Part shown: positions 32,762 through 57,371 of the stretch, one piece after another
How the letters are laid out: the number at the start of each line of letters is the position of its first letter
How positions within the stretch are numbered: position 1 is the first letter of the stretch
Origin: Rhizobium sp. Q54
Lineage (GTDB): Bacteria > Pseudomonadota > Alphaproteobacteria > Micropepsales > Micropepsaceae
Direction of reading: 5' to 3'
Length of the DNA stretch: 64,000 nt
Assembly (NCBI GenBank): GCA_945860165.1
Contig: CAMAPL010000002.1
Location: 124,001 to 188,000 of the forward strand
Position numbers and translations under genes: made by a program
Notes under the pieces: generated by a model
Databases searched by the model: none
Told to the model about the DNA's origin: nothing
What the model saw: only the letters and a program-made list of their open reading frames with translations

Positions 32762-32889
32762 GGGACGATCCGTTCGGGTGGATCTTTCTAAGCCGGTTCG
32801 TGCAGGCGCACCAATGCTGCGCCGCCATGGGTGCCATGCTTGCAAGGACTTGGAAAAACCGGGAGAGTTTCAAAAAACAAGGGGCTGTC

Positions 32890-34374
32890 ATGACCAAGGT
32901 TTTCATTGCCGGGATTTTTCACGAGACCCATTCCTTTTCGGGTGAAACCACCGGGTTGGAGGGTTTCGAAATCCATCGCCGCACGGAAATCACCAGCCGG
33001 GTGGGCGATGCCTCCCAGATCGACGGCTTCCTGAGCGTCGCGGCCAAGAAAGGCTGGGAGGTGGTGCCGAGCGTGATCTATACCGGCGGCGCTTCCGGCA
33101 CGGTCGACCATGCCGTGTTTGAGACATTCTGGGGCGAAGTGAAGCCGATCCTGGAAAAGGCGCTGGCCGAGGGCTTGGACGCCATCCACCTGTCGCTGCA
33201 CGGCGCCATGGTCACCAGCGGCTGCGACGATCCGGAAGGCGAGTTGATGGCGCGTATCCGCGCAACGCCGGGCGCCGAGAACCTACCGATGTATTGCGTC
33301 GGTGATTTGCACGCGACATTAACGCCGCGGATGGGCGCGCTGTCGGATTGCATGATCTTCTATCGCGAATGCCCGCACACCGATGCCTATGACAGCGCCG
33401 TGCTGACCACCGAACTGCTGGCGCGCTGTCTCAAGACCGGCGTGCGGCCCAGGCATCTGGTGCTGGTGACGCCGATTATCTGGCCGCCCACCGGCACCGG
33501 CACCAAGGACGGGCCGATGCGGGCGCTGGAAGACGCTGCCCGCCGTCTGGAAAAGGATGTTCCCGGTGTACTGGCGGTGAATATTGTCGGCGGCTACGCT
33601 TTTTCCGATGTGCCCCATGCGGGCGTCGCCTTCAGCATTATCACCGAAGGCGACGAGGCGGCGGCGCAGGAAGGCCTGCGCGAACTGGCGCAGATCGCCT
33701 GGGACATGCGCGAAGGCGGCATTCCGCCCGAGCATGATCTAGACACGGTGGTGCGCGAATTCAAGCCGGCGGGCAAAGGCCCGATTTTGCTGGTGGAGCC
33801 AGCCGACAATATCGGCGGCGGCGCGCCGGGCGATGGCACCGACGTGCTGCGGGCACTGCTAAAATACAATGTGCAGGGCGCCGGCGTGGCGCTGGCCAAT
33901 GCCAAGAACGTGGCGGCGCTGCAGGATATTCCCATCGGCGGCAAGACCACCCTGTCCATCGGCGGCAGTTCGCCGCTCGATCCCGGGCCGGTGACGCTGG
34001 AAGTCGAACTGCTTTCCAAAAGCGATGGCGTGTTCGAGCTGGAAGACAAGAATTCCCATCTGGTGGGATCGCTGGGCAAGATCATCCGCATGGGACCGTG
34101 CGCGGTGGTCAAGCATAAAGGCCTGACCATTCTGCTCACCAGCAAGGCGCTGCCGCCTTTCGATCTGGGCCAGTGGCGCAGCCAGGGCGTCAATCCCGAA
34201 GACCTCACCATGATCGGCGTCAAGGCGGCGGTGGGTCACCGCGTCGCCTATGGCAAGATCGCCGCGGGCGAATTTACCGTCAGCACAAGTGGGCCTTGCA
34301 CCTCCGATATCACGCGGCTGCCTTACACCAAGCTGCGGCGGCCGGTTTTCCCGTTGGATCACCTGGAGGCGTGA
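32890..34374 (+). CDS. M81-family zinc metallopeptidase (MlrC-like), first copy
   Basis: The 494-residue protein starts MTKVFIAGIFHETHSFSG, the MlrC N-terminal domain. Likely metal or catalytic residues are Glu12, His104 (SLHGAMV), Asp139 and His141 (GDLHATLTPRMG) and His163 (CPHTDAYD). The C-terminal MlrC domain runs from about residue 300 (NIGGGAPGDGTDVLRALL). MlrC is the last hydrolase in microcystin breakdown, but most M81 members act on other peptides or amides. Its stop overlaps the substrate-binding protein gene by 1 bp. It is the first gene of a six-gene operon that ends with a second M81 gene. Confidence 0.9.
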   Translation: MTKVFIAGIFHETHSFSGETTGLEGFEIHRRTEITSRVGDASQIDGFLSVAAKKGWEVVPSVIYTGGASGTVDHAVFETFWGEVKPILEKALAEGLDAIHLSLHGAMVTSGCDDPEGELMARIRATPGAENLPMYCVGDLHATLTPRMGALSDCMIFYRECPHTDAYDSAVLTTELLARCLKTGVRPRHLVLVTPIIWPPTGTGTKDGPMRALEDAARRLEKDVPGVLAVNIVGGYAFSDVPHAGVAFSIITEGDEAAAQEGLRELAQIAWDMREGGIPPEHDLDTVVREFKPAGKGPILLVEPADNIGGGAPGDGTDVLRALLKYNVQGAGVALANAKNVAALQDIPIGGKTTLSIGGSSPLDPGPVTLEVELLSKSDGVFELEDKNSHLVGSLGKIIRMGPCAVVKHKGLTILLTSKALPPFDLGQWRSQGVNPEDLTMIGVKAAVGHRVAYGKIAAGEFTVSTSGPCTSDITRLPYTKLRRPVFPLDHLEA

Positions 34375-37761: not shown

Positions 37762-39371
37762 TGGCAGAGGCTCTGATCTCCATCCGCGACCTGACCGTGG
37801 CCTTGCCGCCGGGTGCCGACCGCGCCCATGCGGTGGACGGCGTCAGCCTGGACATACCGCGCAACGAAATCCTCTGCATCGTGGGCGAATCAGGTTCCGG
37901 CAAGTCGCTGACGGCGCACGCCGTGATGGGCCTTCTGCCGCGTGGGGTGACGGCGAGCGGCGGCCAGATCCTGTTCGGCGGCGCGGATCTGCTGCGCCAG
38001 CGCCCCGAAGCGATGCGCAAGCTGCGCGGCCGCGACATCGCCATGATCTTCCAGGACCCTATGGCGGCGCTCAATCCGGTGGTGAATATCGGCCAGCAGA
38101 TCACCGAGCAGATTCGCGCACATCGCGGAATTGGCGAAAAAGAGGCGTTGCAGCAGGCCGCGGGATTGCTGGCCGAGATGGGTCTGAAGGACACCAAAAG
38201 CCTTCTCAAATCCTTTCCGCATCAATTGTCGGGCGGCCAGCGCCAGAGGGTGATGATCGCCATGGCGTTGTCGCTGTCGCCCAAGCTGTTGGTCGCCGAC
38301 GAGCCGACCACGGCGCTGGATGTCACCACCCAGGCGCAGATCCTGAAACTGATTAAGCGCATCCAGTCCGAGCGCGAGATGAGCGTGCTATTCATCACCC
38401 ATGATTTCGGCGTGGTGGCGGACATGGCCGACCGGGTGGCGGTGATGCGCCAAGGCCGGGTGGTGGAAAGCGGCACCACCACGGAGGTGCTGAGCAATCC
38501 TACCCATTCCTATACCCGCGCCCTGATCGCCGCTGTTCCCACCGGCGAATGCGACTTGCCGCCGCCACCGCCGGACGCGGTGCCGCTGATGGCGGTAACC
38601 CGTCTCAGCAAGCGTTTCCGCCGCGGCGGGTTTTTCTCCGGCGCCTCCGCGATTGCGGCGGTGGACAATGTCTCCCTGACCCTGAGCAGGGGCGAAACCC
38701 TAGGGATTGTGGGCGAGTCCGGTTCGGGCAAATCCACCCTGGCACGCTGCGTGATCCGTCTGCTGGACCCCGATGAGGGCGAGATATTGTTCGACGGCGC
38801 CGACATCGCCCGCATGGGCGCGCGCGGCCTGCGCCCGTTGCGCCGCCGCATCCAGATGGTGTTCCAGGACCCTTTTTCGTCGCTCAATCCGCGCGAGACG
38901 GTGGGTGACATCATCATCGCTGGACCGCGCGCCTATGGCGAGGATATGCGCGAGGCTAGCCGCCGCGCCGCCGACATCATGCGGCTGGTGGGTCTCAATC
39001 CGGAAACCATGAAGCGTTTCCCGCACGAATTTTCCGGCGGCCAGCGCCAGCGCATCGGCCTGGCCCGCGCCCTGATGCTGAAACCCGACGTTCTGATCGC
39101 AGATGAACCGGTTTCGGCGCTGGACGTTACGGTGCAGGCGCAGGTGCTTAAGCTGCTGGATGATGTGCGCCAGCAGATGAATCTCGCCATGCTGTTCATC
39201 ACCCATGACATGCGGGTGGCCGCCCAGGTCTGTCACCGGGTGATGGTGATGCGCCACGGCCAGGTGGTGGAATCGGGGCCGACGCGCGAAATCTTCGCCG
39301 CCCCGTCCAGCGACTATACCCGCGCCTTGCTGGCCGCCATTCCCGGGCGTGGCCTACTGGCAGCGGTTTGA
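37761..39371 (+). CDS. Fused double ABC ATPase, DppD-DppF type
   Basis: One 536-residue chain carries both ATPases of a peptide importer. The first half has Walker [10 protein letters not shown], signature LSGGQRQR, Walker [13 protein letters not shown]; the second has [29 protein letters not shown]. The junction is about residue 265. The first half has the Dpp/Opp C-terminal extension, ending near [15 protein letters not shown]. Fusion makes a compact five-component cassette with only four transport genes. Confidence 0.95.
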
Positions 39372-39382
39372 AGGAGAGTGCC

Positions 39383-40855
39383 ATGCGCATCGCCATTGCG
39401 GAATTCAAGCAGGAGACCAACAGTTTCGTGCCCTTCACCACCACGGTGAAGACCTTCGAGGACCAGTATCTGTATCGCGGCGCGGATATTCTCACCGCCT
39501 TTGGCAGCGCGCGGCTGGAAGTTCCGGGCGCGCTGGATGCCTGCCGGGAAGCCGGCGCAACGCCCCTGCCGCTGCTGGCCACCATGGCGATGGCGTCGGG
39601 CACGGTGGAGCGCGCCAGTTTTGACATTCTGATGAACGAGATTGTCGAGCGCCTGCGCGCCGTCCTGCCGGTGGACGGGGTGTTTCTGGCCCTGCATGGC
39701 GCCATGATCCTGGAAGACGAACCCGATGCCGAGGCCGAAATCGTGCGCCGGGTGCGCGCCGAACTCAAGCCCGGCACACCCATCACCGTGTCGCTTGATC
39801 TTCATGGCCATATCACCGCCGCCATGCTGCAGCCCAACGTCGCCTATATCGGCTATCGCGAATTTCCCCATATCGACATGTATGAGACCGGCCATCGCGC
39901 CACCTGCCTGCTGATCGACTGGATTGCCGGCAAGGTGAAGCCGGTGATGGCGCTGTCCAAGCGCCACATGGTATTCAGCCCGGATTCGGCGCGCACCACC
40001 ACCCCGCCGCTCAGCGATATCGTCGCCGAAGGCCGCGCCATGGAAGCGCGGGGCGAAGTGCTCCATGTCTCGCTGTTTCCAGTGCAGCCCTGGATCGATA
40101 CGCCCGATCTGGGTTTCGCGGCCTTGGTCTGCGGCGAAGATCAGGAACAGGCGCAAGCCTGCGCCGATAGGTTGGCCAAGATGGCCTGGGACCGGCGCAC
40201 TGAGTTCGAGCCTGACGTCACGCCGCTGGACGAAATCATCCGCATCGGCCTGTCATCGCCCGGCCTGACCGTGGCCAGCGATTCCGGCGACACGCCCAGT
40301 GGCGGAGCGGCGGCGGATTCCACCGCCGTGCTGGCGGCGCTTCTGCATGCTGGGGCCGACCGCGCCGACCGGATCAGCATCTGCACCCTGTGCGATGCCG
40401 AAGCGGCGGCCCTAGCCGCGAAGGCAGGTGTGGGCAAGACCATCACTCTGGCGGTGGGCCACAAGCGTTCGGGATTGGGCGATCCGCTCACCGTCACCGG
40501 CAAGGTCAAGGCCATCAGCGATGGCCAGTATGTTCTGGAAGGGCCGGGCGGCAACGGCATGGTAGGCGAGATGGGCCTGACTGTGGTGCTGGCGATCGGC
40601 GCGATCCGGCTCAACCTGCGCTCCATTCCCCATTTCGAATGGGACCTGGGGATTCACAAATCGGTGGGACTGGACCCGGCCCGCGCGGCGCTGATCTTCG
40701 TGCGCTCGCCGTCGCATTTCCGCGTCTCGTATACGCCTATCGCGGAACGCATCTTCCTGGCCGATACGCCGGGTCCGACCTGCGTGAACATGCGGCGCAT
40801 CCCCTTCACCAAGGTGACGCGGCCCTTCTATCCCCTGGACCTGGTGAACGACTAA
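39383..40855 (+). CDS. M81-family zinc metallopeptidase (MlrC-like), second copy
   Basis: The 490-residue paralogue has the same key positions: Glu11 (FKQETNSF), His105 (ALHGAMI), Asp139 and His141 (SLDLHGHITAAMLQ), and His163 (FPHIDMYE). The C-terminal domain includes SGDTPSGGAAADSTAVLAAL. Sequence divergence from the first copy is large, so they are old duplicates and probably have different preferences. The ATG at 39383 follows AAGGAGAG 11 bp after the ATPase stop. It is the last operon gene; its stop overlaps the convergent Nudix gene by 4 bp. Confidence 0.9.
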   Translation: MRIAIAEFKQETNSFVPFTTTVKTFEDQYLYRGADILTAFGSARLEVPGALDACREAGATPLPLLATMAMASGTVERASFDILMNEIVERLRAVLPVDGVFLALHGAMILEDEPDAEAEIVRRVRAELKPGTPITVSLDLHGHITAAMLQPNVAYIGYREFPHIDMYETGHRATCLLIDWIAGKVKPVMALSKRHMVFSPDSARTTTPPLSDIVAEGRAMEARGEVLHVSLFPVQPWIDTPDLGFAALVCGEDQEQAQACADRLAKMAWDRRTEFEPDVTPLDEIIRIGLSSPGLTVASDSGDTPSGGAAADSTAVLAALLHAGADRADRISICTLCDAEAAALAAKAGVGKTITLAVGHKRSGLGDPLTVTGKVKAISDGQYVLEGPGGNGMVGEMGLTVVLAIGAIRLNLRSIPHFEWDLGIHKSVGLDPARAALIFVRSPSHFRVSYTPIAERIFLADTPGPTCVNMRRIPFTKVTRPFYPLDLVND

Positions 40856-43010: not shown

Positions 43011-45293
43011 TCAGTCCGGCAAGCCGAACACGAACAGGTTGTAGCCATTGGCCGGGCGGCGCACTTCCCGCAGCAGGGTGGCGGGCTTGTTCTGCGGGCT
43101 GCCGCCGCCAAGGCCGGTGGTGACGGCAATGTATTGCTTGCCGCCGACGCTGAAGCTGACTGGATAGCCCTGTACCGTGGTGCCCAGGCGCGAGGTCCAC
43201 AGGGTTTTGCCGTTGCGGGTATCCACCGCGCGGAAGACGCGGTCGAAATCGCCGACAAAGGCCAGGTTGCCCGCCGTTGAGACCACGCCGGTCAGGAAGG
43301 GCGAGCGCTGCTGGAACGACCAGAGCGGCTTGAGATCGCTGGCGCGGTAAGCCGAGAGGCGGCCATTGTTACCATTGGTGCCGGGCATCTCGAAGTAGGT
43401 CTGCGAGCCGTTGCCGAGCATGAAGACGCAGGACTGCGACAGTGGAATGATCAGCGCATCGCTGGGCTGATGATAGCTGGTCGCCTGCCAGTCATGACCG
43501 CCCTGCGGGCCGGGGCAGGACGACAGCCACTGATCCACCTTCTGGTTATGAATGTCCTTGCGATAGACGACCTTGCCGGTCTTCTCGTCAAAGTTTTCAT
43601 AGACGTTCTGAAACACCGTCTGCTTGGCGGCCAGGAACTTGCCGGTGTTGGCATCCAGCTTCCACAGGATGCCCGGCTTGCCAATGGTGAGCACCGACTT
43701 CTGATTTTCGTGCGTCACGATCACGCGCTCGAACACTTCGTCGAGATCGAGGGATTCGCCCGGCGCATGGTTGTACGCCCACTTCAGCTTGCCGGTATCG
43801 GCATCCAGCGCGATGGTCGAGTTGGCATAGTCGGTGGCGCCAGCGCCCGAGCCGCGCAGGTCGCGCCGCCAGGGCTTGGCTTGCGCCGTGCCCCAATAGG
43901 TCGTGTTGCTTTCCGGATCGTAGGTGCCCGCTATCCAGGTTTCGCCGCCCTTGCGTTCATTGTCGGGCAGCCCACCCCAGCTGTCGCCGCCCTTCTGGCT
44001 TTTCAGCGCGACGGTGGTGAACTTCCAGTCGCGCTTGCCGGTCCTGGCGTCATAGGCGCTGATGTAACAGTGATTGTCGTCGCCCTTGCGGCCGCAATTG
44101 GTCATGCCGACCAGCACACGGCCATTGACGATGATGATGCCGCCGGTGGAGCCGCCGACCATGCCGCTGTTGTTGGCGAACATTTTCTCGTCGGTGATGT
44201 GGGACTTCCACACCTGCTTGCCGGTGCGCGCGTCCAGGGCATAGACATAACCCTGGGGCGTGTTGACATAGATGTTGTTGCCCCAGAGGCCCATGGAGCG
44301 GGTTTCCTCGGTGGAGGGGCCGGGACCGGGACGGCGCGGCGCTGGACCCAGGCGGTTTTCCCACAGCAGTTCGCCGCTCTTGGCATCCAGCGCCTGGATG
44401 GTGTTGCTGGTGCCCCAGATGAAGAGAACGCCGCTATGGATCAGCGGTGTGATTTCCAGGGTGCCGTTTTCCGGCAGCGACCACATCCATTTCAGCTGCA
44501 GCGACCCGACATTCTGGGTGTTGATCTGGTCCAGCGGACTGTAGCTCCAGCCCTGGTAATTGCGCCGGTACATCAGCCAGTCGCTGTCCGCCGGCTTGCG
44601 CAGCATCTCATCGGTGACCGGCACGTAATTCTGGATATTGCCTTCGACGATCAGGCCGAACTGGGTCGGCAGGCCGAAACCGCCCGGATCGGGCACGCGA
44701 AAGCCCGCCATGGCACGCGCGAAAAGGCTTTGGCCGGCAGCTGCCGGGGCATTGCTGGTGCCGGAGGCCGGCGGCGGCGTGGATGCTGCGCGCGCGGCAC
44801 CGGAATCGGGCTCTTCCGTGCTGCCAGCCTGCGCGGTCATGGCGGGGCGATTTGCCGGCACGCGGCCGCTCGCAATGGTATCGATCTGAACCGCGGTGGC
44901 CGGGGTGAAGGCCGCGCCGCCGGCGCGCGCGCCATTGCGCTCCAGAATATAGGCGGTGATATCGGTATACTGCTTTTCGCTCAGGGTGCCGCCGCCGCCC
45001 AGCGGCATGGTCGCGTGAATCTTGCTGTAAAGCTGCGCCGTACTGCGCTTGCCCCAGGCGCCGATGAAGGCAGTGCCCCCTAGCGCCGGCGCATCATTGG
45101 TGCCGCTCAGGTCGGGTAGGTGGCAGCCGGCGCAAGCATTGTCATACATTGCGTGTCCGTCATTTGCCTGTGCCGCGGTGAAGGGACCGGCGGCGCCCTG
45201 ACCCATGGCAGAGGGGCCAAAAGCTGTGGCGCCGAGCGCGCCCATCGCGATCGTGGCAGCCGCACCCAGAAACAATCCAGTTTTCTTACGCAT
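43011..45293 (-). CDS. Cytochrome c - PQQ-type beta-propeller dehydrogenase, exported
   Basis: The ATG at 45293 follows GAGGA and gives 760 residues with a signal peptide. A cytochrome c domain comes first, with heme motif CAGCH (Cys54, Cys57, His58). A Pro/Ala/Thr-rich linker (about 145-185) follows, then an eight-bladed propeller with tryptophan-docking repeats such as ALDAKSGELLW, ALDARTGKQVW, AYDARTGKRDW, ALDADTGKLKW and AVDTRNGKTLW. The vicinal Cys-Cys typical of quinoprotein alcohol dehydrogenases is not visible. The heme domain is N-terminal, whereas classical quinohaemoprotein alcohol dehydrogenases have it C-terminal. Substrate is unknown (alcohol or sugar). It forms a unit with the CHRD gene upstream. 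Confidence 0.9.
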   Translation of the reverse strand: MRKKTGLFLGAAATIAMGALGATAFGPSAMGQGAAGPFTAAQANDGHAMYDNACAGCHLPDLSGTNDAPALGGTAFIGAWGKRSTAQLYSKIHATMPLGGGGTLSEKQYTDITAYILERNGARAGGAAFTPATAVQIDTIASGRVPANRPAMTAQAGSTEEPDSGAARAASTPPPASGTSNAPAAAGQSLFARAMAGFRVPDPGGFGLPTQFGLIVEGNIQNYVPVTDEMLRKPADSDWLMYRRNYQGWSYSPLDQINTQNVGSLQLKWMWSLPENGTLEITPLIHSGVLFIWGTSNTIQALDAKSGELLWENRLGPAPRRPGPGPSTEETRSMGLWGNNIYVNTPQGYVYALDARTGKQVWKSHITDEKMFANNSGMVGGSTGGIIIVNGRVLVGMTNCGRKGDDNHCYISAYDARTGKRDWKFTTVALKSQKGGDSWGGLPDNERKGGETWIAGTYDPESNTTYWGTAQAKPWRRDLRGSGAGATDYANSTIALDADTGKLKWAYNHAPGESLDLDEVFERVIVTHENQKSVLTIGKPGILWKLDANTGKFLAAKQTVFQNVYENFDEKTGKVVYRKDIHNQKVDQWLSSCPGPQGGHDWQATSYHQPSDALIIPLSQSCVFMLGNGSQTYFEMPGTNGNNGRLSAYRASDLKPLWSFQQRSPFLTGVVSTAGNLAFVGDFDRVFRAVDTRNGKTLWTSRLGTTVQGYPVSFSVGGKQYIAVTTGLGGGSPQNKPATLLREVRRPANGYNLFVFGLPD

Positions 45294-45353
45294 TTTATAC
45301 GTCCTCAAATTTAGTTGGCGCGCCTGATCTTGTTAGCGCGAAGGCCAAATCTG

Positions 45354-50242: not shown

Positions 50243-51160
50243 ATGAGCGAACCTGCCTTTATTGCCGGCGACTGGGGCACCAGCCGCTTGCGGCTTTATC
50301 TCTGCGACCCGTCTGGCCATGTGCTGGCGCGCGCCGAAGGCGAGGGTGCGGCGGTGCCCGATTGTGCCGGGCGTTTCGCCGCTGCGGTGGCCCCTTGGGA
50401 CAAAGCGCATGGCAAGTTGCCCGCGCTGCTGGGCGGCATGGTGGGTTCCACCATCGGCTGGCACGAAGTGCCTTATCTCAGCTGCCCGGCGCGGCCTGAA
50501 GCGATTGCCGCCGCTGCCCTGCGGTTCGAAGACGACGACCGCGCCATTGCCATCGTGCCGGGCCTGAAATGCGTCAGCCGGACCGGGGCGCCCGATGTGA
50601 TGCGCGGCGAGGAGGTACAGATATTGGGCGCGCTGCGGCTGTATCCCGAACTGGCCAAGGGGCGCCGCATCATCTGTATGCCCGGCACCCATGCCAAATG
50701 GGTGGCGGTGGAAGACGGTGCGGTGATGGAATTCCAGACCGCGCTGTCGGGTGAACTGTTCGATCTGCTGCGCAAGCATAGCGTGTTGGCGCGCGACGGC
50801 GGCGAGGTGCGTGCCGACAGCCATGCCTTCACGCAGGGCCTGGATTTCTTCCGCCGCAATGCCCAGGCCGATCTGTTGTATCTGCTGTTCAGCACCCGCA
50901 GCCGGGTGGTGACGGGCGAGATGCCCAAGGCTGATGGCGCGTCCTATCTGTCGGGTCTGGTGCTGGGCGCGGATGTAGATACAGCGGCGTCGCTGTTCGA
51001 TCTTTCGCCGGAAGATGCGGTGCATTTGATCTGCACCCCAGCGCTGGCGGCGCTTTATGGCAAGGCCCTGGCGCAGTATGGTCTGAAAATAAATGTACTG
51101 GACGGCGATGCCTGTGCGCTGGCTGGACTGGTGCGGATTCACACGGAAGTTTTTTCATGA
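50243..51160 (+). CDS. dgoK: 2-dehydro-3-deoxygalactonokinase
   Basis: Phosphorylates 2-keto-3-deoxygalactonate to the 6-phosphate in D-galactonate breakdown. The 305-residue protein has the DgoK N-terminus (FIAGDWGTSRLRLYLCDPSG), the MCGMVGS-like LLGGMVGSTIGWHEVPYL and late PGTHAKWVAVEDGAVMEFQT and FSTRSRVVTGEM. Its stop overlaps the dgoA start by 4 bp. The pathway step fits its neighbours. Confidence 0.92.
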   Translation: MSEPAFIAGDWGTSRLRLYLCDPSGHVLARAEGEGAAVPDCAGRFAAAVAPWDKAHGKLPALLGGMVGSTIGWHEVPYLSCPARPEAIAAAALRFEDDDRAIAIVPGLKCVSRTGAPDVMRGEEVQILGALRLYPELAKGRRIICMPGTHAKWVAVEDGAVMEFQTALSGELFDLLRKHSVLARDGGEVRADSHAFTQGLDFFRRNAQADLLYLLFSTRSRVVTGEMPKADGASYLSGLVLGADVDTAASLFDLSPEDAVHLICTPALAALYGKALAQYGLKINVLDGDACALAGLVRIHTEVFS

Positions 51161-51774
51161 GCGATTTTCTGGCCGAACTTCCCCTTGTCGCCATCCTGCG
51201 CGGCGTCACGCCTGACAGGATTGAGGGCGTGGCCGGGGCGCTGTTTGACGCGGGCTTTCGCGCCATCGAGGTGCCGCTGAATTCGCCGCAAGCCTTCAAG
51301 AGCATCGAGATTCTCGCTAAGGCGTTTGGTGATCGCTGCCTGACCGGCGCCGGCACGGTGTTGACGGTCGAGAATGTGGATCGGGTGGCGGATGTGGGTG
51401 GCACTCTGCTGGTGACGCCCAACATCAACCCGGCGGTTATCTCGCACGGCGTGTCAAAAGGCATGACGGTGATGCCGGGCTTCTTCACCCCCAGCGAAGG
51501 CTTTGCCGCCATCGCGGCGGGTGCGCGCACGCTCAAGCTGTTTCCCGCCTCCACTGGCGGCACCGACCACATGAAGGCGATGCTGGCGGTACTGCCCAAG
51601 GATGTGCCGGTTTATGCGGTGGGCGGGGTCGGCGCCGCCAACATGAAAGAGTGGCGCAGGTGCGGCGCCGCTGGCTTTGGCCTGGGCTCGGACTTGTTCA
51701 AGCCTGATTTCAGCGATGAAGAGATTGGCGCCCGCGCGCGCAAGTGTGTCGAAGCGTTTAAGGCAGCGGTTTAA
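51157..51774 (+). CDS. dgoA: 2-dehydro-3-deoxy-6-phosphogalactonate aldolase
   Basis: Splits KDPGal into pyruvate and glyceraldehyde 3-phosphate. The 205-residue KDPG/KDPGal aldolase has PLVAILRGVTPDRIEGVAGAL, GAGTVLTVENVDRVADVG and the Schiff-base Lys in ARTLKLFPASTGG, then YAVGGVGAANM. It is translationally coupled to dgoK. It is convergent with the dehydratase-like gene across a palindromic repeat. Confidence 0.93.
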   Translation: MSDFLAELPLVAILRGVTPDRIEGVAGALFDAGFRAIEVPLNSPQAFKSIEILAKAFGDRCLTGAGTVLTVENVDRVADVGGTLLVTPNINPAVISHGVSKGMTVMPGFFTPSEGFAAIAAGARTLKLFPASTGGTDHMKAMLAVLPKDVPVYAVGGVGAANMKEWRRCGAAGFGLGSDLFKPDFSDEEIGARARKCVEAFKAAV

Positions 51775-51785
51775 ACGCCCTCCTG

Positions 51786-51835
51786 CTTCGACAGGCTCAG
51801 CATGAGGACTACTCCTCACCCTGAGCTTGTCGAAG
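51786..51835. repeat. REP-like inverted repeat between dgoA and the dehydratase gene
   Basis: Left arm CTTCGACAGGCTCAGCATGAGG (51786-51807) and right arm (51814-51835) pair with three mismatches around a 6-nt loop. The TTCGACAAGCTCAGGGTGAGG pattern is a palindrome that recurs in many alphaproteobacterial genomes. It lies between two convergent genes, where it may work as a bidirectional terminator. Confidence 0.75.
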
Positions 51836-51843
51836 GGTGAGCC

Positions 51844-53088
51844 TTACCAGTTGGTGAAGCTGCCATCCGGCCGGTGGTTGATCGGAATGGGCGCATAAGC
51901 CTCCATCCAGTCGCCGATCAACTGCAACTTGCTGGTGTCCAAGGTCACACCCAGACCTGGGCGTTCGTTCGGCCACAGCTTGCCGCTCTTGAAGTCATAA
52001 CATTCCGGCAAATACGGCCAGGGCTGGCGGCCCGAGGCGGTCATTTCCATCAGCGCCTTGACCGAGGTGGCAGTGAGGCAATGCACCAGCGCGGTTTCGC
52101 CTATGGGTCCGGTGAAGTGCGGGATCATGCCGACATAATGGGTTTCGGCTATGGCGCAGATCTTCATGTATTCGGTAATGCCGCCGACATTGGGCACGGT
52201 GCAGCGGGCATAGTCGATCAGCTGCTGCTCGATCAGCATGTTGGTGTCCCACTTGGCGCCGTATATTTCGCCGACCGCGATCGGTACGCGCAGGCGCGGG
52301 CGGATGGTCTTGTAGATTTCGATATTCTCGCCGCGCACCAGATCTTCCACGAAATAGGGACGCAGCGGCTCGATCAGGGTGGCCAGGTTGATGGCGTCTT
52401 CCTGGTCCAGCACGCCATGGAAGTCGATCGCCCAGCCGCCATCCTTGCCCGCGCCCTTGCGCAGCAGCTTGCAGGCTTCATAGGAGTCGGGCACGGCCTG
52501 GAAACGGTCGAACTCCCGCCCGCCCAGTGTACCGATGCGAATGGCGCGATAGCCTTCAGCGATGCAGTTGCGCGCCGCGTCTTCCAGGGTGCCGCCCTTG
52601 GGCGTGGGATAGGAGGTGGCATAGCATTCGATATGGTCGCGTGCCTTGCCGCCCAGCAGTTGCCACACCGGCACGCCCAGCGTCTTGCCCTTCAGATCCC
52701 ATAGCGCCAGATCGAGGCCGCCCAGCGAATGCGTCTTCTCGCGGCCCGCCGGGTAGAAATAGGAGCGATACATGCGCTGCCACAGATGCTCGATGCGGAA
52801 CGGGTCCTGGCCGATCAGAAGGCCGGCGCACTGCTGCATGGACGAGGGCTCGCCGCCTTCGCCAATGCCGATAAGCCCGCCTTCGGTCTCGATGGTGACG
52901 ACATTGGTGGACTGGTTGAAGGTCGGCTGCTGCACATTGGGACGGCCCGCCGCATCGGTGGGTGTCTTGTAATAGCGGATGCGCTTGATCTTGTCCTTGG
53001 GCAGCCCCAGCGCGAAGGCATCGGGCGGTGTCCATAGCGAGGCCGCAGCCGTACCCAGCATGCCCGTCATCAATGTGCGGCGATCCAT
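51844..53088 (-). CDS. Tat-exported galactonate-dehydratase-like enolase-superfamily enzyme
   Basis: ATG at 53088 with GGAGGGG upstream; 414 residues. The leader MDRRTLMTGMLGTAAASLWT has the twin Arg and Tat-like hydrophobic core. The enolase-superfamily core has metal ligands Asp222 (DFHG, with His224), Glu248 (YFVEDL) and Glu274 (AVGEIYG), then His324 (IPHFTGPIGE) and Glu331. The DFHG/His pair at these positions matches D-galactonate dehydratases. Such dehydratases are normally cytoplasmic. It is read together with the beta-propeller gene upstream (29 bp apart) and faces dgoK-dgoA. I infer that it dehydrates an aldonate in the periplasm. Confidence 0.85.
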   Translation of the reverse strand: MDRRTLMTGMLGTAAASLWTPPDAFALGLPKDKIKRIRYYKTPTDAAGRPNVQQPTFNQSTNVVTIETEGGLIGIGEGGEPSSMQQCAGLLIGQDPFRIEHLWQRMYRSYFYPAGREKTHSLGGLDLALWDLKGKTLGVPVWQLLGGKARDHIECYATSYPTPKGGTLEDAARNCIAEGYRAIRIGTLGGREFDRFQAVPDSYEACKLLRKGAGKDGGWAIDFHGVLDQEDAINLATLIEPLRPYFVEDLVRGENIEIYKTIRPRLRVPIAVGEIYGAKWDTNMLIEQQLIDYARCTVPNVGGITEYMKICAIAETHYVGMIPHFTGPIGETALVHCLTATSVKALMEMTASGRQPWPYLPECYDFKSGKLWPNERPGLGVTLDTSKLQLIGDWMEAYAPIPINHRPDGSFTNW

Positions 53089-53117
53089 ATTCCCCTCCAT
53101 ATATGTTTTTGTAATTC

Positions 53118-53963
53118 TTACGTCAGGCTGCAGATCCAGCCTTCGGCGGCGTCGCAATACCACAGCACGCCGTCCTTGATGTCCAGCCCATGCAGCGACG
53201 GGTCGGCCTTCTTGTCCAGCACGATCTTGGCGACGATGCCGCCGTCCGACATGCGCAGCTTGTAGATTTCCGCTTCATCGCTGCCGGTGCACCAGATGTA
53301 ATCGCCTTCCAGCGCGATGCCATGGGTGCGGATGGTGGGCGCCTGGATGCTGCGCGCCACGGTGCCTTCCTCGGCATTGATCAGATAGAGTTTGCCGCCG
53401 GCCGGCGTGGCCAGCCAGTACTGCCCATTGCCAGCCCATTTGACGCCATGACCGCCGGATTCCAGCGGCAGGTCGCCAGGCTGGCGCGTGCGGGTGAGAT
53501 AGGAGCCATAGATGCCCCAGCCCGGCGTTTCCCACTTCTTCAGCGTCTTGCCGGTTTTGGGATCAACCTTGAGCGTGGAGGGATTGCCGGTCGCTACCTT
53601 GGTGGAAGCGATGAACCAGGCGCCATTGCCGTAAGTGATGCCGCTGCCATGCAGGGATTCGGTTTCGATGCTGGAGATCACCGCGCCGGTTTTCGGATTG
53701 ACGGTGAAAACCTTGTTGGGATTTTTCTGGTCCAGAATCCACAGATCGCCATTGGCGGCGAATTGCAGATCGTTGGGCTGATCGATCGTCGGCTTGGTGT
53801 TGAACAGCTGGTTTACTTTTTTAGCGATCACAGGCGCGTTCTGGCGCGCGGCGATGGTGGCTTCGGGAATGACGGGATTGGCGGCGAAGGCGAGGCTGGG
53901 GATCAGCGTGCCGCATGCTGCGAGCCCGCTTGTTGCCAGAAGTTGGCGGCGCGTAATTTCCAT
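53118..53963 (-). CDS. Tat-exported beta-propeller protein, possible sugar lactonase
   Basis: The 281-residue protein has a strong Tat leader (EITRRQLLATSGLAACGTLIPSLAFA). It is followed by six or so repeats of an SMP-30/YncE-like propeller (DLQFAANGDLWILDQ, KVFTVNPKTGAVIS, LKVDPKTGKTLKKW, HGVKWAGNGQYWLATPAGGKLYLI, HGIALEGDYIWCTG, HGLDIKDGVLWYCD). SMP-30 relatives are calcium-dependent aldonolactonases. The position directly upstream of the dehydratase gene suggests a role in opening a lactone or in sugar binding; this is an inference. Confidence 0.75.
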   Translation of the reverse strand: MEITRRQLLATSGLAACGTLIPSLAFAANPVIPEATIAARQNAPVIAKKVNQLFNTKPTIDQPNDLQFAANGDLWILDQKNPNKVFTVNPKTGAVISSIETESLHGSGITYGNGAWFIASTKVATGNPSTLKVDPKTGKTLKKWETPGWGIYGSYLTRTRQPGDLPLESGGHGVKWAGNGQYWLATPAGGKLYLINAEEGTVARSIQAPTIRTHGIALEGDYIWCTGSDEAEIYKLRMSDGGIVAKIVLDKKADPSLHGLDIKDGVLWYCDAAEGWICSLT

Positions 53964-54209
53964 CTGACCGAAGTCCTTTTTTTATGGTTTTTACTTGCGG
54001 CAAAATAGGCGAGTTTCGTGATCAGGGCAAAACCACCGCAGTGCAGCATGACTGTTTCGCGCGGTGTGAAAACGCGGACAGCGTTTGTTTTCGCTGACAT
54101 CTTGTTGTATCGTCTTGTCAGCCGCCACAACATAAGAAGCGGCATAAAATGCTAGATGGCGCAGACCATCGGCTGGGTTGAGGGAAAGAACTCAAAAATC
54201 AACGAATTA

Positions 54210-54332
54210 TCGGCGAAAGCCGAATGGTCGCGATTGGTCAGTCGATTCCGCTGCCTGACGGAATGCAAAACATAACGCGGGATCAACCCGCGAAATTGGT
54301 GCCGCCTTCCAACGGAGGGCGGCACTTTTTTT
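54210..54332 (+). ncRNA. Candidate structured RNA or leader: four hairpins ending in a terminator
   Basis: In the 620-bp gap before the amidohydrolase, four stem-loops follow each other: TCGGC-GAAA-GCCGA (54210-54223), ATTCCG-8 nt-CGGAAT (54245-54264), CGCGGG-ATCAA-CCCGCG (54276-54292) and the 12-bp terminator stem (54299-54325) with seven T. The first has a GNRA tetraloop. No coding reading covers it, and I do not recognise a known riboswitch or 6S RNA. Its promoter could lie around 54110-54200. It could be a stand-alone small RNA or a leader that attenuates the amidohydrolase-MFS transcript, whose start codon is 252 bp further on. Confidence 0.5.
54299..54332 (+). terminator. Strong intrinsic terminator in the 54-kb gap
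   Basis: Stem GTGCCGCC...GGCGGCAC (8 perfect pairs) plus four further pairs TTCC/GGAG (one wobble) and a 3-nt loop, then seven T (54326-54332). No gene ends near it on this strand, so it must end a non-coding or leader transcript. Confidence 0.82.
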
Positions 54333-54584
54333 CGTCGTGCGATGCGGGCAGCCGCCGCCGAGGGATCGTTATATCGCAGTGCAGCGTAAATTCTTGCAGC
54401 TTTTTTTTCGAGAGGGCCTGCCCTAAGGTCCGCCAGGGTATTTTCCGGTTCAACCAACAGAAATTCCTGCGGGAATTAAACCGGACAGGGAAGCAAAACA
54501 CGCGGGTCCATTGCTTCGATCCAAAGTCCGGCCGAGGCAGGCCGAGCCAAGCATATAAGTGCAGAACACAAATGGGAGTTGTAA

Positions 54585-56018
54585 ATGCGTAATGTGAAAT
54601 TCGGCGTTGCCACGGCGGCCCTGCTGGCCGCCACCCTGACGGCCGCACCCGCTGGCGCCGAAACCACGGTGTTGAGCAATGCCACGGTGATCGACGGCAC
54701 CGGCAAGCCGGCCATGCCGGGTTCGGCCATTGTGATGACCGACGGCAAGATTTCCTGGGTCGGCCCGATGGCGCAGCTCAAGGCCCCGAAGGGCGCCAAT
54801 ACCGTGGACCTGAGCGGTAAGTATGTGATGCCGGGCATTATCGACGGCCATGTCCATGTCGGCATGATGAAGGATGTGGCGCAGGACGTTAAGTTTTATG
54901 ACCGCGCCAATGTCGAATCCGATCTGAAGGTCTATGCCGCCTATGGCGTTACCACGGTGGTGGTGGCGGGCACCGACAAGGACGTCATCATCGACATCCG
55001 CAACGACCTGCGCAAAACCCGCCCCAGCATGGCGCGGGTGTACACCAGCGGCCAGGGCTTGGTGCAAAAGGGTGGTTATGGCGGTCTGTACGGCCTGAAC
55101 GTGCCGATCAGCACCCCGGAAGAAGCGCGCAAGGCGGTGGCCGCCGAGGCCGCCAAGGGCGTGGACCTGATCAAGCTCTGGGTCGATGACGAGCGCGAGA
55201 TGATCCCGGTCAAAATGCCTTACACGGTCACCAAGGCGGCGATCGATGAAGCGCACAAGCATAAATTGAAGGTCTGGGCGCACGTCTATTATCTGGATGA
55301 CGCCAAGGAATTGGCGCGCCAGGGCGTAGACGGTTTCGCCCATATCGTGCGCGACAAGGCGGTGGACAAGGAACTGATCGACCTGATGAAGGCCAAGGGC
55401 ACCTGGCAGGCCTCCTCGACCCTCAGCCGCGAGATCGTCTACTCCATGGCGGTGATGCCCTGGATCAACGATCCCTTCTTCACCCGCGGCGTCACGCCCG
55501 GCACCCTGACTGCGCTGCGCAGCCCGGAACGCGAGAAGAATGTAATGCTGGGCTACCTCCGCGTTCCAGGCCTGCCGTATGAGAAGAAGCTGTTCTACGA
55601 TATGGGCCGCACCGTTGTGCAGGCGATGGACAATTACACGGCGCTGGTCCAGGCCGGCGTCAAGACTGGCATGGGCACCGACAGCGGCCCCAATGGCCGG
55701 TTCCCCGGCTTTAATGCGCATGAGGAACTGCAGATGGAAGTGATGGCGGGCCGCACCCCGCTGGACGCCATCAAGTCCGCCACCAGCGATAATGCCGCCT
55801 GGCTGGGCGACAAGACCGTTGGCAGCATCGAGGCCGGCAAGTGGGCCGACCTGCTGGTGCTGGACGCCGATCCCCTGGCCGACATCCGCAACACCAAGTC
55901 GATCTCGGCGGTGTATGTGGCGGGCAATTCCGTGCCCACCATCTGGCAGACCTGCCGTGACCGTCCCTCCAATGCCTGCACCGGTGGCTGGAAAGACCGC
56001 TCGCCGACCCCGTACTGA
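54585..56018 (+). CDS. Exported metal-dependent amidohydrolase
   Basis: The 477-residue amidohydrolase-superfamily enzyme has a signal peptide (FGVATAALLAATLTAAPAGA). The metal motifs are all there: HXH in DGHVHVG, the bridging Lys in DLIKLWVDD, His in KVWAHVYY, His in DGFAHIVRD, and catalytic Asp in GMGTDSGPNG. The closest type is the imidazolonepropionase/prolidase-like group. It could cleave an amide, a lactone or a cyclic compound. A hairpin lies between it and the MFS gene 66 bp later; both probably belong to one transcript. Confidence 0.85.
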   Translation: MRNVKFGVATAALLAATLTAAPAGAETTVLSNATVIDGTGKPAMPGSAIVMTDGKISWVGPMAQLKAPKGANTVDLSGKYVMPGIIDGHVHVGMMKDVAQDVKFYDRANVESDLKVYAAYGVTTVVVAGTDKDVIIDIRNDLRKTRPSMARVYTSGQGLVQKGGYGGLYGLNVPISTPEEARKAVAAEAAKGVDLIKLWVDDEREMIPVKMPYTVTKAAIDEAHKHKLKVWAHVYYLDDAKELARQGVDGFAHIVRDKAVDKELIDLMKAKGTWQASSTLSREIVYSMAVMPWINDPFFTRGVTPGTLTALRSPEREKNVMLGYLRVPGLPYEKKLFYDMGRTVVQAMDNYTALVQAGVKTGMGTDSGPNGRFPGFNAHEELQMEVMAGRTPLDAIKSATSDNAAWLGDKTVGSIEAGKWADLLVLDADPLADIRNTKSISAVYVAGNSVPTIWQTCRDRPSNACTGGWKDRSPTPY

Positions 56019-56036
56019 GCTGACTGAACTGTGTTC

Positions 56037-56064
56037 CGGCGCGGATGGATTTCCATCCGCGCCG
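56037..56064 (+). terminator. Perfect 12-bp hairpin between amidohydrolase and MFS genes
   Basis: CGGCGCGGATGG / CCATCCGCGCCG with loop ATTT. It is followed by TTTG only, so it may reduce rather than stop transcription into the MFS gene, or protect the mRNA 3' end. Confidence 0.55.
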
Positions 56065-56084
56065 TTTGCCTGAAGGAAATTTCG

Positions 56085-57371
56085 ATGTCGTCAATCGCCG
56101 CCCGGCCGACCCGCGTCCGTCACACCGTCCTGTGGCTGACCGTGCTGCTCTACATGGTGACTTACTTCGACCGGGTGATGATCTCGACCGCCATGCCGTC
56201 GATCCAGCAGGAATTCGGCTTCTCGACCGTGACGGTCGGCTGGATTTTCGCTGCCTTCCAGATCAGCTATGCGCTGTTCCAGATTCCCGGCGGCTGGCTG
56301 GGCGACTATATCGGTCCGCGCAAGATGCTGACCTACATCGTGCTGTGGTGGTCGGCCTTCACCGCTCTCACCGCCCTGTCCTGGTCGCTCACCTCGATGA
56401 TCGTGTTCCGCTTCCTGTTCGGTATGGGCGAAGCGGGCGCCTTCCCCAACGCCACCCGTTCACTGTCGCGCTGGATGCTGCCGTCCGAGCGCGGCTGGGC
56501 CCAGGGCATCACCCATGCCGGCGCGCGCCTGGGCGCGGCGATTACGCCGGTGATGGTGGCGTTCCTGATCCTGCATTTCGGCTGGCGCTTCCCCTTCTTC
56601 GTCTTCGCGCTGGTCGGCGTGGTATGGGCGGGCGTGTGGTACTGGTATTACCGCGACAATCCCGCCGAACATAAGAGCACCAACGAAGCCGAACAGCAGC
56701 TCATTCATTCGGCGCTGGGATCGGCGCCCAAGCGCCGGACCATTCCGTGGGGTGCGATCCTCTCCAGCCCGCAGATGTGGGTGCTGGCGGCGACGTATTT
56801 CTGCTACGGCTATGCGCTCAACATGTTCCTGGCCTGGTTCCCGAAATACCTGGAAGCGGCTCGCGGCATGAGCCTGACGCAGATGGGCATCTTCGCCAGC
56901 GTGCCGCTCGCGGCGGGCGTGCTCGGCGATATCGCCGGTGGGTGGTTCTCGGACGAAATCATCAAGAAGACCGGCCGCATCAAGTTCGCCCGCAAGGTGG
57001 TGGCGGTGACCGGCTTCTTCATCGCGGCTGTCGTCTGCCCCTTCGCGGTGCTGGAGCCCAACCCCTATATCAGCATCGCGTTGTTCGGCCTGGCGGTGTT
57101 CAGCCTGGAACTGGTGGTGGGCAATGCCTGGGCGGTGTCGCTGGACATCGGCGGCAATTTCGCTGGCTCGGTGTCCTCGGTGATGAACACGCTGGGCAAT
57201 ATCGGCGGTACCATCATGGCGGTGGCCACCGGCTATATCGTGGCGTCCTATGGCTGGAACATGTCCTTCTATGTGGTGGCGGCGCTGGCGGCGATCGGCG
57301 GGATACTGTTCCTGTTCGTGGATGCGAGCCGGCAAATCTATGTCGAGCCGCCGACCACGCCGGCGGTCTGA
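56085..57371 (+). CDS. MFS transporter, ACS family (sugar-acid symporter type)
   Basis: The ATG at 56085 with GAAGGA upstream gives 428 residues and 12 TM segments. Family marks are [56 protein letters not shown] and a C-terminal [15 protein letters not shown]. These are typical of the anion:cation symporter family, which includes the galactonate transporter DgoT, the hexuronate transporter ExuT and GudP. With dgoK-dgoA and the exported dehydratase close by, a sugar acid or its keto-deoxy product is the likely cargo. Confidence 0.88.

Follow-up and report, generated by a model that had tools for sequence, protein, structure and literature searches.

A predicted sugar-acid dehydratase family with a conserved twin-arginine leader and its linkage to dgoK and dgoA in Alphaproteobacteria and Bacteroidota

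Dehydration of sugar acids is treated as a cytoplasmic step. A locus in Rhizobium sp. Q54 raises the question of whether this step can take place outside the cytoplasm, on which substrate, and whether its product would enter a kinase and aldolase of the galactonate type. The locus lies in a stretch of 64,000 nucleotides, hereafter the window, in which dgoK, encoding 2-keto-3-deoxygalactonokinase (50243–51160, plus strand; PF05035, 280.2 bits, cut-off 25), overlaps by four bases with dgoA, encoding 2-keto-3-deoxy-6-phosphogalactonate aldolase (51157–51774, plus strand; NF006600, 281.9 bits, cut-off 207). Both genes pass curated family cut-offs, and dgoK is present as a single copy in the host genome. 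Convergent with this pair on the opposite strand, and not in one operon with it, is a gene for a predicted exported sugar-acid dehydratase of the mandelate racemase subgroup of the enolase superfamily (51844–53088, minus strand; 414 amino acids; PF13378 and PF02746). A first-pass annotation had placed dgoK and dgoA beside an enolase-superfamily enzyme, which the family cut-offs and coordinates bear out.

The open reading frame of the dehydratase is listed as 51844–53163; its actual start is the ATG at 53088, set there because of a strong ribosome-binding site (GGAGGGG, 53092–53098, minus strand), 4–10 bases upstream, and because no other start occurs between the leader and codon 52. That codon, a GTG, is the first in-frame start past the leader and falls within the domain, so that the search for a downstream start that would remove the leader, a possibility raised with the first-pass annotation, yielded none that is plausible. 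The leader itself (MDRRTLMTGMLGTAAASLWTPPDAFA, 53011–53088, minus strand) has 26 residues with a twin-arginine motif, a hydrophobic stretch and an AxA cleavage motif, is followed by the residues LGLP and precedes the conserved first strand KIKRIRYY; residues 1–20 have low pLDDT in the AF2 model. It is kept in all homologues of the host's genus. An alignment-based search of bacterial and archaeal genomes returned 80 loci of the family, distributed over Alphaproteobacteria, Acidobacteriota, Bacteroidota, Verrucomicrobiota and two other phyla. Leaders were called from their motifs in the 80 family members whose N-terminus could be read (79 of the loci plus the window enzyme): 78 of them have a twin-arginine leader with the RR motif and 64 have AxA near the start of the domain, while the leader reads RRNFLK, the textbook motif, in many Bacteroidota copies. 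The twin-arginine leader is absent only from one copy of Anaerolineae and one of Armatimonadota. Conservation throughout the genus and in all but two of these 80 sequences indicates that the leader, which the first-pass annotation had recognized, is not there by chance and, together with the presence of TatC in the host genome (239 bits), supports the predicted export of the dehydratase via Tat.

Both the N- and C-terminal MR_MLE domains of the enzyme score above their Pfam cut-offs (135.8 and 61.3 bits, respectively). The metal ligands Asp222, Glu248 and Glu274 and the acid/base residues His224 and His324 align with Asp183, Glu209, Glu235, His185 and His285 of E. coli DgoD, and all five are invariant across the family members checked. 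In the AF2 model (pLDDT 84), the nearest folds are those of dehydratases (Z about 40–43), and fold and sequence together support a predicted sugar-acid dehydratase of the mandelate racemase subgroup. The same five residues had been reported previously, exactly as found here, and taken as marks of a galactonate dehydratase; they are equally those of mannonate dehydratase and mark the dehydratase group, not DgoD.

The proposed identity as galactonate dehydratase had to be abandoned on three grounds. The enzyme scores 206.8 bits against NF010624, the cut-off of which is 311; where E. coli DgoD has Asp258, the partner of the catalytic His285, it has Thr, this position being Thr or Ser in its clade; and the phylogenetic tree places it outside the DgoD group (99/97), in a separate clade of 21 rows (100/100). 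This clade groups nearer to ManD than to DgoD. The D-mannonate/D-gluconate dehydratases (ManD and RspA-like enzymes; 3vcn, 2qjm and 3tw9) form the sister clade and share the fold (Z about 40, 28–34% identity), the metal and acid/base residues and the Thr at the DgoD Asp258 position. Assignment to ManD was nevertheless rejected: the window enzyme reaches 198.9 bits against NF043051, with a cut-off of 550, and an alignment gap shows that it is missing the loop that carries the catalytic Tyr in ManD. Its predicted export is a further difference. In the curated profile search, the enzyme was below every equivalog cut-off.

The gene upstream of the dehydratase on the same strand, separated from it by a gap of 30 bases, encodes a DUF6923-like β-propeller (53118–53963, minus strand; PF21959, 32 bits) with a twin-arginine leader (MEITRRQLL...), in agreement with the first reading. 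The role of lactone opening that this reading had given it found no support: the propeller matches neither PF08450 nor PF10282, DUF6923 being the sole profile matched, and the best fold match of its AF2 model (pLDDT 87) is glutaminyl cyclase 3nol (Z 23.1, rmsd 2.3, 209 residues aligned), with glutaminyl cyclases at Z 21–23 versus 15.2 for an SMP-30-like entry. The propeller is missing in one genome (G039). Divergent from it are an amidohydrolase with an N-terminal Sec-type signal (54585–56018, plus strand; PF01979, 84.6 bits), which was absent from the earlier gene list, and an MFS transporter of the ACS family (56085–57371, plus strand; PF07690, 220.6 bits; start of the listed frame, 56031). 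The amidohydrolase gene is flanked by the propeller and MFS genes, the latter of which it adjoins throughout the host's genus. The carrier, which had been correctly placed in the ACS family, resembles TIGR00893 (292.8 bits) but stays below the cut-off of this model (395), which served as the test for DgoT; it is 28% identical to E. coli DgoT. A search for RNA elements in the intergenic region 54100–54340 gave no match to any Rfam family that came close to the gathering score.

Within the host's order, dgoK is present in all 21 genomes that have the enzyme and in 13 of the 75 that do not (Fisher p about 1e-12, kinship ignored). In 16 genomes, dgoKA is located beside the enzyme at a locus of the window type, a linkage that, in the genus, is partly a matter of shared ancestry of the whole region. 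A second type of locus, with dgoKA and the enzyme next to thyA, is found in G043 and G078, and in G072 and G076 dgoKA is located away from the enzyme. Among genus members that do not have the enzyme, dgoKA adjoins a leaderless DgoD in two (G033 and G074) and an IlvD/EDD-like dehydratase, named by eye, in two others (G049 and G067). Eight of the 21 genomes with the enzyme and dgoK are without a DgoD orthologue at E 1e-100, including G075, which is 100% complete, and G078 (98%), where just two proteins match DgoD at E 1e-20, both of them predicted exported members of this family.

The linkage recurs in Bacteroidota, where clusters of the enzyme, dgoK, dgoA and an MFS gene on one strand occur in Spirosoma panaciterrae, Segetibacter aerophilus, Runella aurantiaca, Larkinella terrae and L. 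knui. The arrangement in Bacteroidota is either enzyme-dgoK-dgoA-MFS or a longer operon that adds LacI, SusCD, a DgoD-like enzyme with a Tat leader and a PQQ dehydrogenase (loci L174, L184, L186, L189 and L193). In the Runella cluster, LacI is followed by the enzyme, by a second Tat-leader enzyme scoring 440 bits, above the galactonate-dehydratase cut-off, by a glucose-type PQQ dehydrogenase that includes a cytochrome c domain, and then by dgoK, dgoA and the MFS gene; upstream of it are SusC-like and SusD genes and a third Tat-leader member of the enolase superfamily. In a further search of 14 Bacteroidota genomes, a single dgoK was found 8–16 kb downstream of the enzyme on the same strand in ten, and no dgoK in four. 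Acidobacteriota loci showed no dgoKA near the enzyme in the stretches examined. Since the Runella DgoK, DgoA and MFS proteins share only 28, 31 and 26% identity with those of the window, the association of the enzyme with dgoKA was probably built more than once, and descent of these clusters as a single block is improbable. Four of eight genomes (Runella aurantiaca, Larkinella knui, Spirosoma terrae and S. panaciterrae) had no leaderless DgoD-like match at E 1e-30; together with the Bacteroidota operons, this supports dehydration in the periplasm followed by import. The best test genomes do not, however, qualify as devoid of any cytoplasmic dehydratase: DgoD is absent from them, but an arabinonate-type enzyme is present. 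A sugar-acid dehydratase of the IlvD/EDD family (arabinonate/xylonate type) is encoded in the host, in G078 and in every Bacteroidota genome checked, so that the keto acid might also be produced in the cytoplasm in all of them.

From the leader, fold, residues and gene linkage we infer export, substrate, transport and flux through DgoK and DgoA as follows. The dehydratase would fold in the cytoplasm and then be exported by Tat to the periplasm, where it would act on an aldonic acid that is formed or set free in that compartment. Water would be lost across C2–C3 by the Mg2+-enediolate chemistry usual for the mandelate racemase subgroup, and the resulting 2-keto-3-deoxy-aldonate would be imported by an ACS-family MFS carrier, phosphorylated by cytoplasmic DgoK and split by DgoA into pyruvate and glyceraldehyde 3-phosphate. 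The host genome contains about 13 enolase-superfamily loci, seven with twin-arginine leaders; two of the predicted exported paralogues, at 359 and 325 bits, exceed the galactonate-dehydratase cut-off, though both have Glu as the first metal ligand. On another contig, it encodes a leaderless DgoD (679 bits) adjoining a DgoT that is 55% identical to E. coli DgoT. With this complete cytoplasmic DgoT-DgoD pair, galactonate needs no periplasmic route here, contrary to the first proposal, and dgoKA does not require the exported enzyme. D-galactonate would probably be handled by this separate pair, and the exported enzyme, therefore, more likely handles another aldonate that gives the same keto acid; by stereochemistry, that keto acid arises from D-talonate, D-gulonate or D-idonate. 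We consider it modestly probable that the window encodes periplasmic dehydration, more likely of an aldonate other than galactonate, with import of the product by an MFS carrier and its degradation by DgoK and DgoA. This retains from the first-pass annotation the predicted exported dehydration feeding DgoK and DgoA after import, a linkage found again in Bacteroidota, where the kinase, aldolase and MFS proteins are divergent, and drops galactonate, the propeller lactonase and the need for such a route in the host.

The main competing explanation is that the neighbours are functionally unrelated, with dgoKA serving the DgoT-DgoD pair, the exported dehydratase acting on a different sugar acid, its product going elsewhere (to another kinase or aldolase, or being released), and the adjacency being historical. 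The presence of DgoD and DgoT in the host, the convergent arrangement that precludes a single operon, and the displaced dgoKA in G072 and G076 all speak for it; we nevertheless find it rather unlikely, given that the linkage is repeated at the thyA-type locus, that the Bacteroidota operons are co-directional and contain divergent dgoK and dgoA, and that eight genomes combine the enzyme and dgoK without a DgoD orthologue at the threshold used. The initial proposal in its full form, in which the propeller opens galactonolactone, the enzyme dehydrates galactonate, both in the periplasm, and the MFS protein at 56085–57371 performs the import, agrees with the gene order, with the shared strand and 30-base gap of propeller and dehydratase and with the ACS-family membership of the carrier. 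It appears very improbable in view of the cut-off, Asp258 position and tree that separate the enzyme from DgoD, a propeller that is closest to glutaminyl cyclase, matches no lactonase profile and is missing in G039, the availability of DgoT-DgoD for galactonate, and the pairing of the MFS gene with the amidohydrolase gene.

It is also conceivable, if quite improbable, that the exported enzyme is a racemase or cycloisomerase that uses the same superfamily chemistry to open or epimerise a periplasmic sugar acid, for example. Zobellia DauB, which belongs to the same superfamily and is among the PDB matches (5olc), is a 3,6-anhydro-D-galactonate cycloisomerase, the product of which, 2-keto-3-deoxy-D-galactonate, is upstream of a DgoK-type kinase and an aldolase (PMC5698469). 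The nearest folds and sequences are dehydratases, His224 after Asp222 together with His324 match the dehydratase acid/base pair, and no carrageenan genes were seen around the enzyme, all of which favours dehydration.

Genes for oxidation, lactone opening and dehydration, all with leaders, are adjacent in relatives from the host's genus, not in the window: G072 (L050) combines a PQQ dehydrogenase and a seven-bladed lactonase with the enzyme, and G056 (L053) a PQQ dehydrogenase and an SMP-30 protein. The sole nearby PQQ-type gene in the window is a distant one that encodes an exported cytochrome c/PQQ-type dehydrogenase (43011–45308, minus strand; PF01011 and PF13442). Homologues of it lie within 20 kb of dehydratase homologues at two other kinds of locus (L051 and L058), and it is a possible source of periplasmic aldonates, the link being weak. 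Synthesis of PQQ in situ found no support, as PqqE gave no match above the cut-off in the four genus members searched; PQQ, therefore, would have to be scavenged. Tentatively, and as a possibility that falls somewhat short of probable, we propose that in Alphaproteobacteria, Acidobacteriota and Spirosomataceae a whole branch of sugar-acid catabolism is extracytoplasmic, comprising periplasmic PQQ-dependent oxidation, lactone opening and Tat-exported dehydration, in which 2-keto-3-deoxy acids would be imported instead of sugars or aldonates.

Comparison with known systems helps to place these observations. The De Ley-Doudoroff (dgo) pathway of E. coli (DgoT, DgoD, DgoK and DgoA) employs the same kinase and aldolase families, an enolase-superfamily dehydratase and a carrier of the same broad ACS group; it differs in that the window dehydratase is predicted to be exported by Tat and is not DgoD by cut-off or tree, the window carrier is only distantly related to DgoT, and the true DgoD and DgoT of the host are on another contig. 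E. coli K-12 reportedly uses external 2-keto-3-deoxygalactonate, to judge by the title of a 1978 paper by Cooper that PMC12076931 lists among its references. In the carrageenan pathway of Zobellia galactanivorans, a member of Bacteroidota, the DauA-DauD cluster likewise passes 2-keto-3-deoxy-D-galactonate from an enolase-superfamily enzyme to a kinase and an aldolase, whereas the substrate is 3,6-anhydro-D-galactonate, oxidation is NAD+-dependent, anhydrogalactose is taken up, and no Tat leader is reported in the accessible part of the paper (PMC5698469). Oxidation of sugars outside the cytoplasm by membrane dehydrogenases is described for Gcd and in acetic acid bacteria (PMC9171043). PQQ dehydrogenases similarly adjoin homologues of the enzyme (L050, L053 and L186); the exported steps in those systems are oxidations, and here dehydration by an enolase-superfamily enzyme would be added. 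A literature search, most subscription journals lying outside its range, found no exported enolase-superfamily dehydratase.

The predicted exported dehydratase is a conserved feature that crosses phyla, forming a defined enzyme clade apart from DgoD and ManD with culturable hosts in Runella, Larkinella, Spirosoma and Dyadobacter. As far as can be judged from sequences, the conserved leader and the repeated linkage suggest that the digestion of sugar acids may begin outside the cell interior in these bacteria. If dehydration is indeed periplasmic, the imported compound would be a 2-keto-3-deoxy acid, and the uptake, cross-feeding and genome-based metabolic models of these soil and freshwater bacteria would read differently.

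Besides the dehydratase that faces dgoK-dgoA in the window, six enolase-superfamily proteins of the same genome carry twin-arginine leaders (L061:15670-17022, L064:8716-10155, L065:8258-9694, L067:9221-10507, L068:9124-10458 and L070:9243-10526). Two of the six exceed the galactonate-dehydratase cut-off, and in both the first metal ligand is Glu. A full DgoD and DgoT pair of the cytoplasmic type is encoded in this genome at L063:7798-10234, apart from dgoKA. On contig C11, the leader-bearing protein at L070 lies close to two other exported proteins, identified by eye within L070 9243-16318 as PQQ/cytochrome c dehydrogenase-like and as a lactonase-like propeller; this gene group is possibly a second exported oxidation cluster.

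Genes for PQQ-type dehydrogenases are present in this genome (G000) and in three genus relatives (G078, G072, G056), and no PqqE above the cut-off was found in these four genomes, so that either PQQ would need to be scavenged or the dehydrogenases are PQQ-free.

Within the window, the intergenic stretch between the propeller and amidohydrolase genes (54100-54340) contains a terminator-like inverted repeat with a T run (approximately 54300-54335) and matches no Rfam family close to threshold. At another place in the window, two MlrC-type peptidase-like proteins (32800-34374 and 39368-40855) flank apparent peptide ABC transporter genes, all recognized by eye only.

Among the genus loci L051 and L054-L060, dehydratase homologues adjoin genes for exported GH51 arabinofuranosidases, metallo-beta-lactamase-fold proteins and PQQ sugar dehydrogenases, neighbours which hint at a source in sugars of the plant cell wall.
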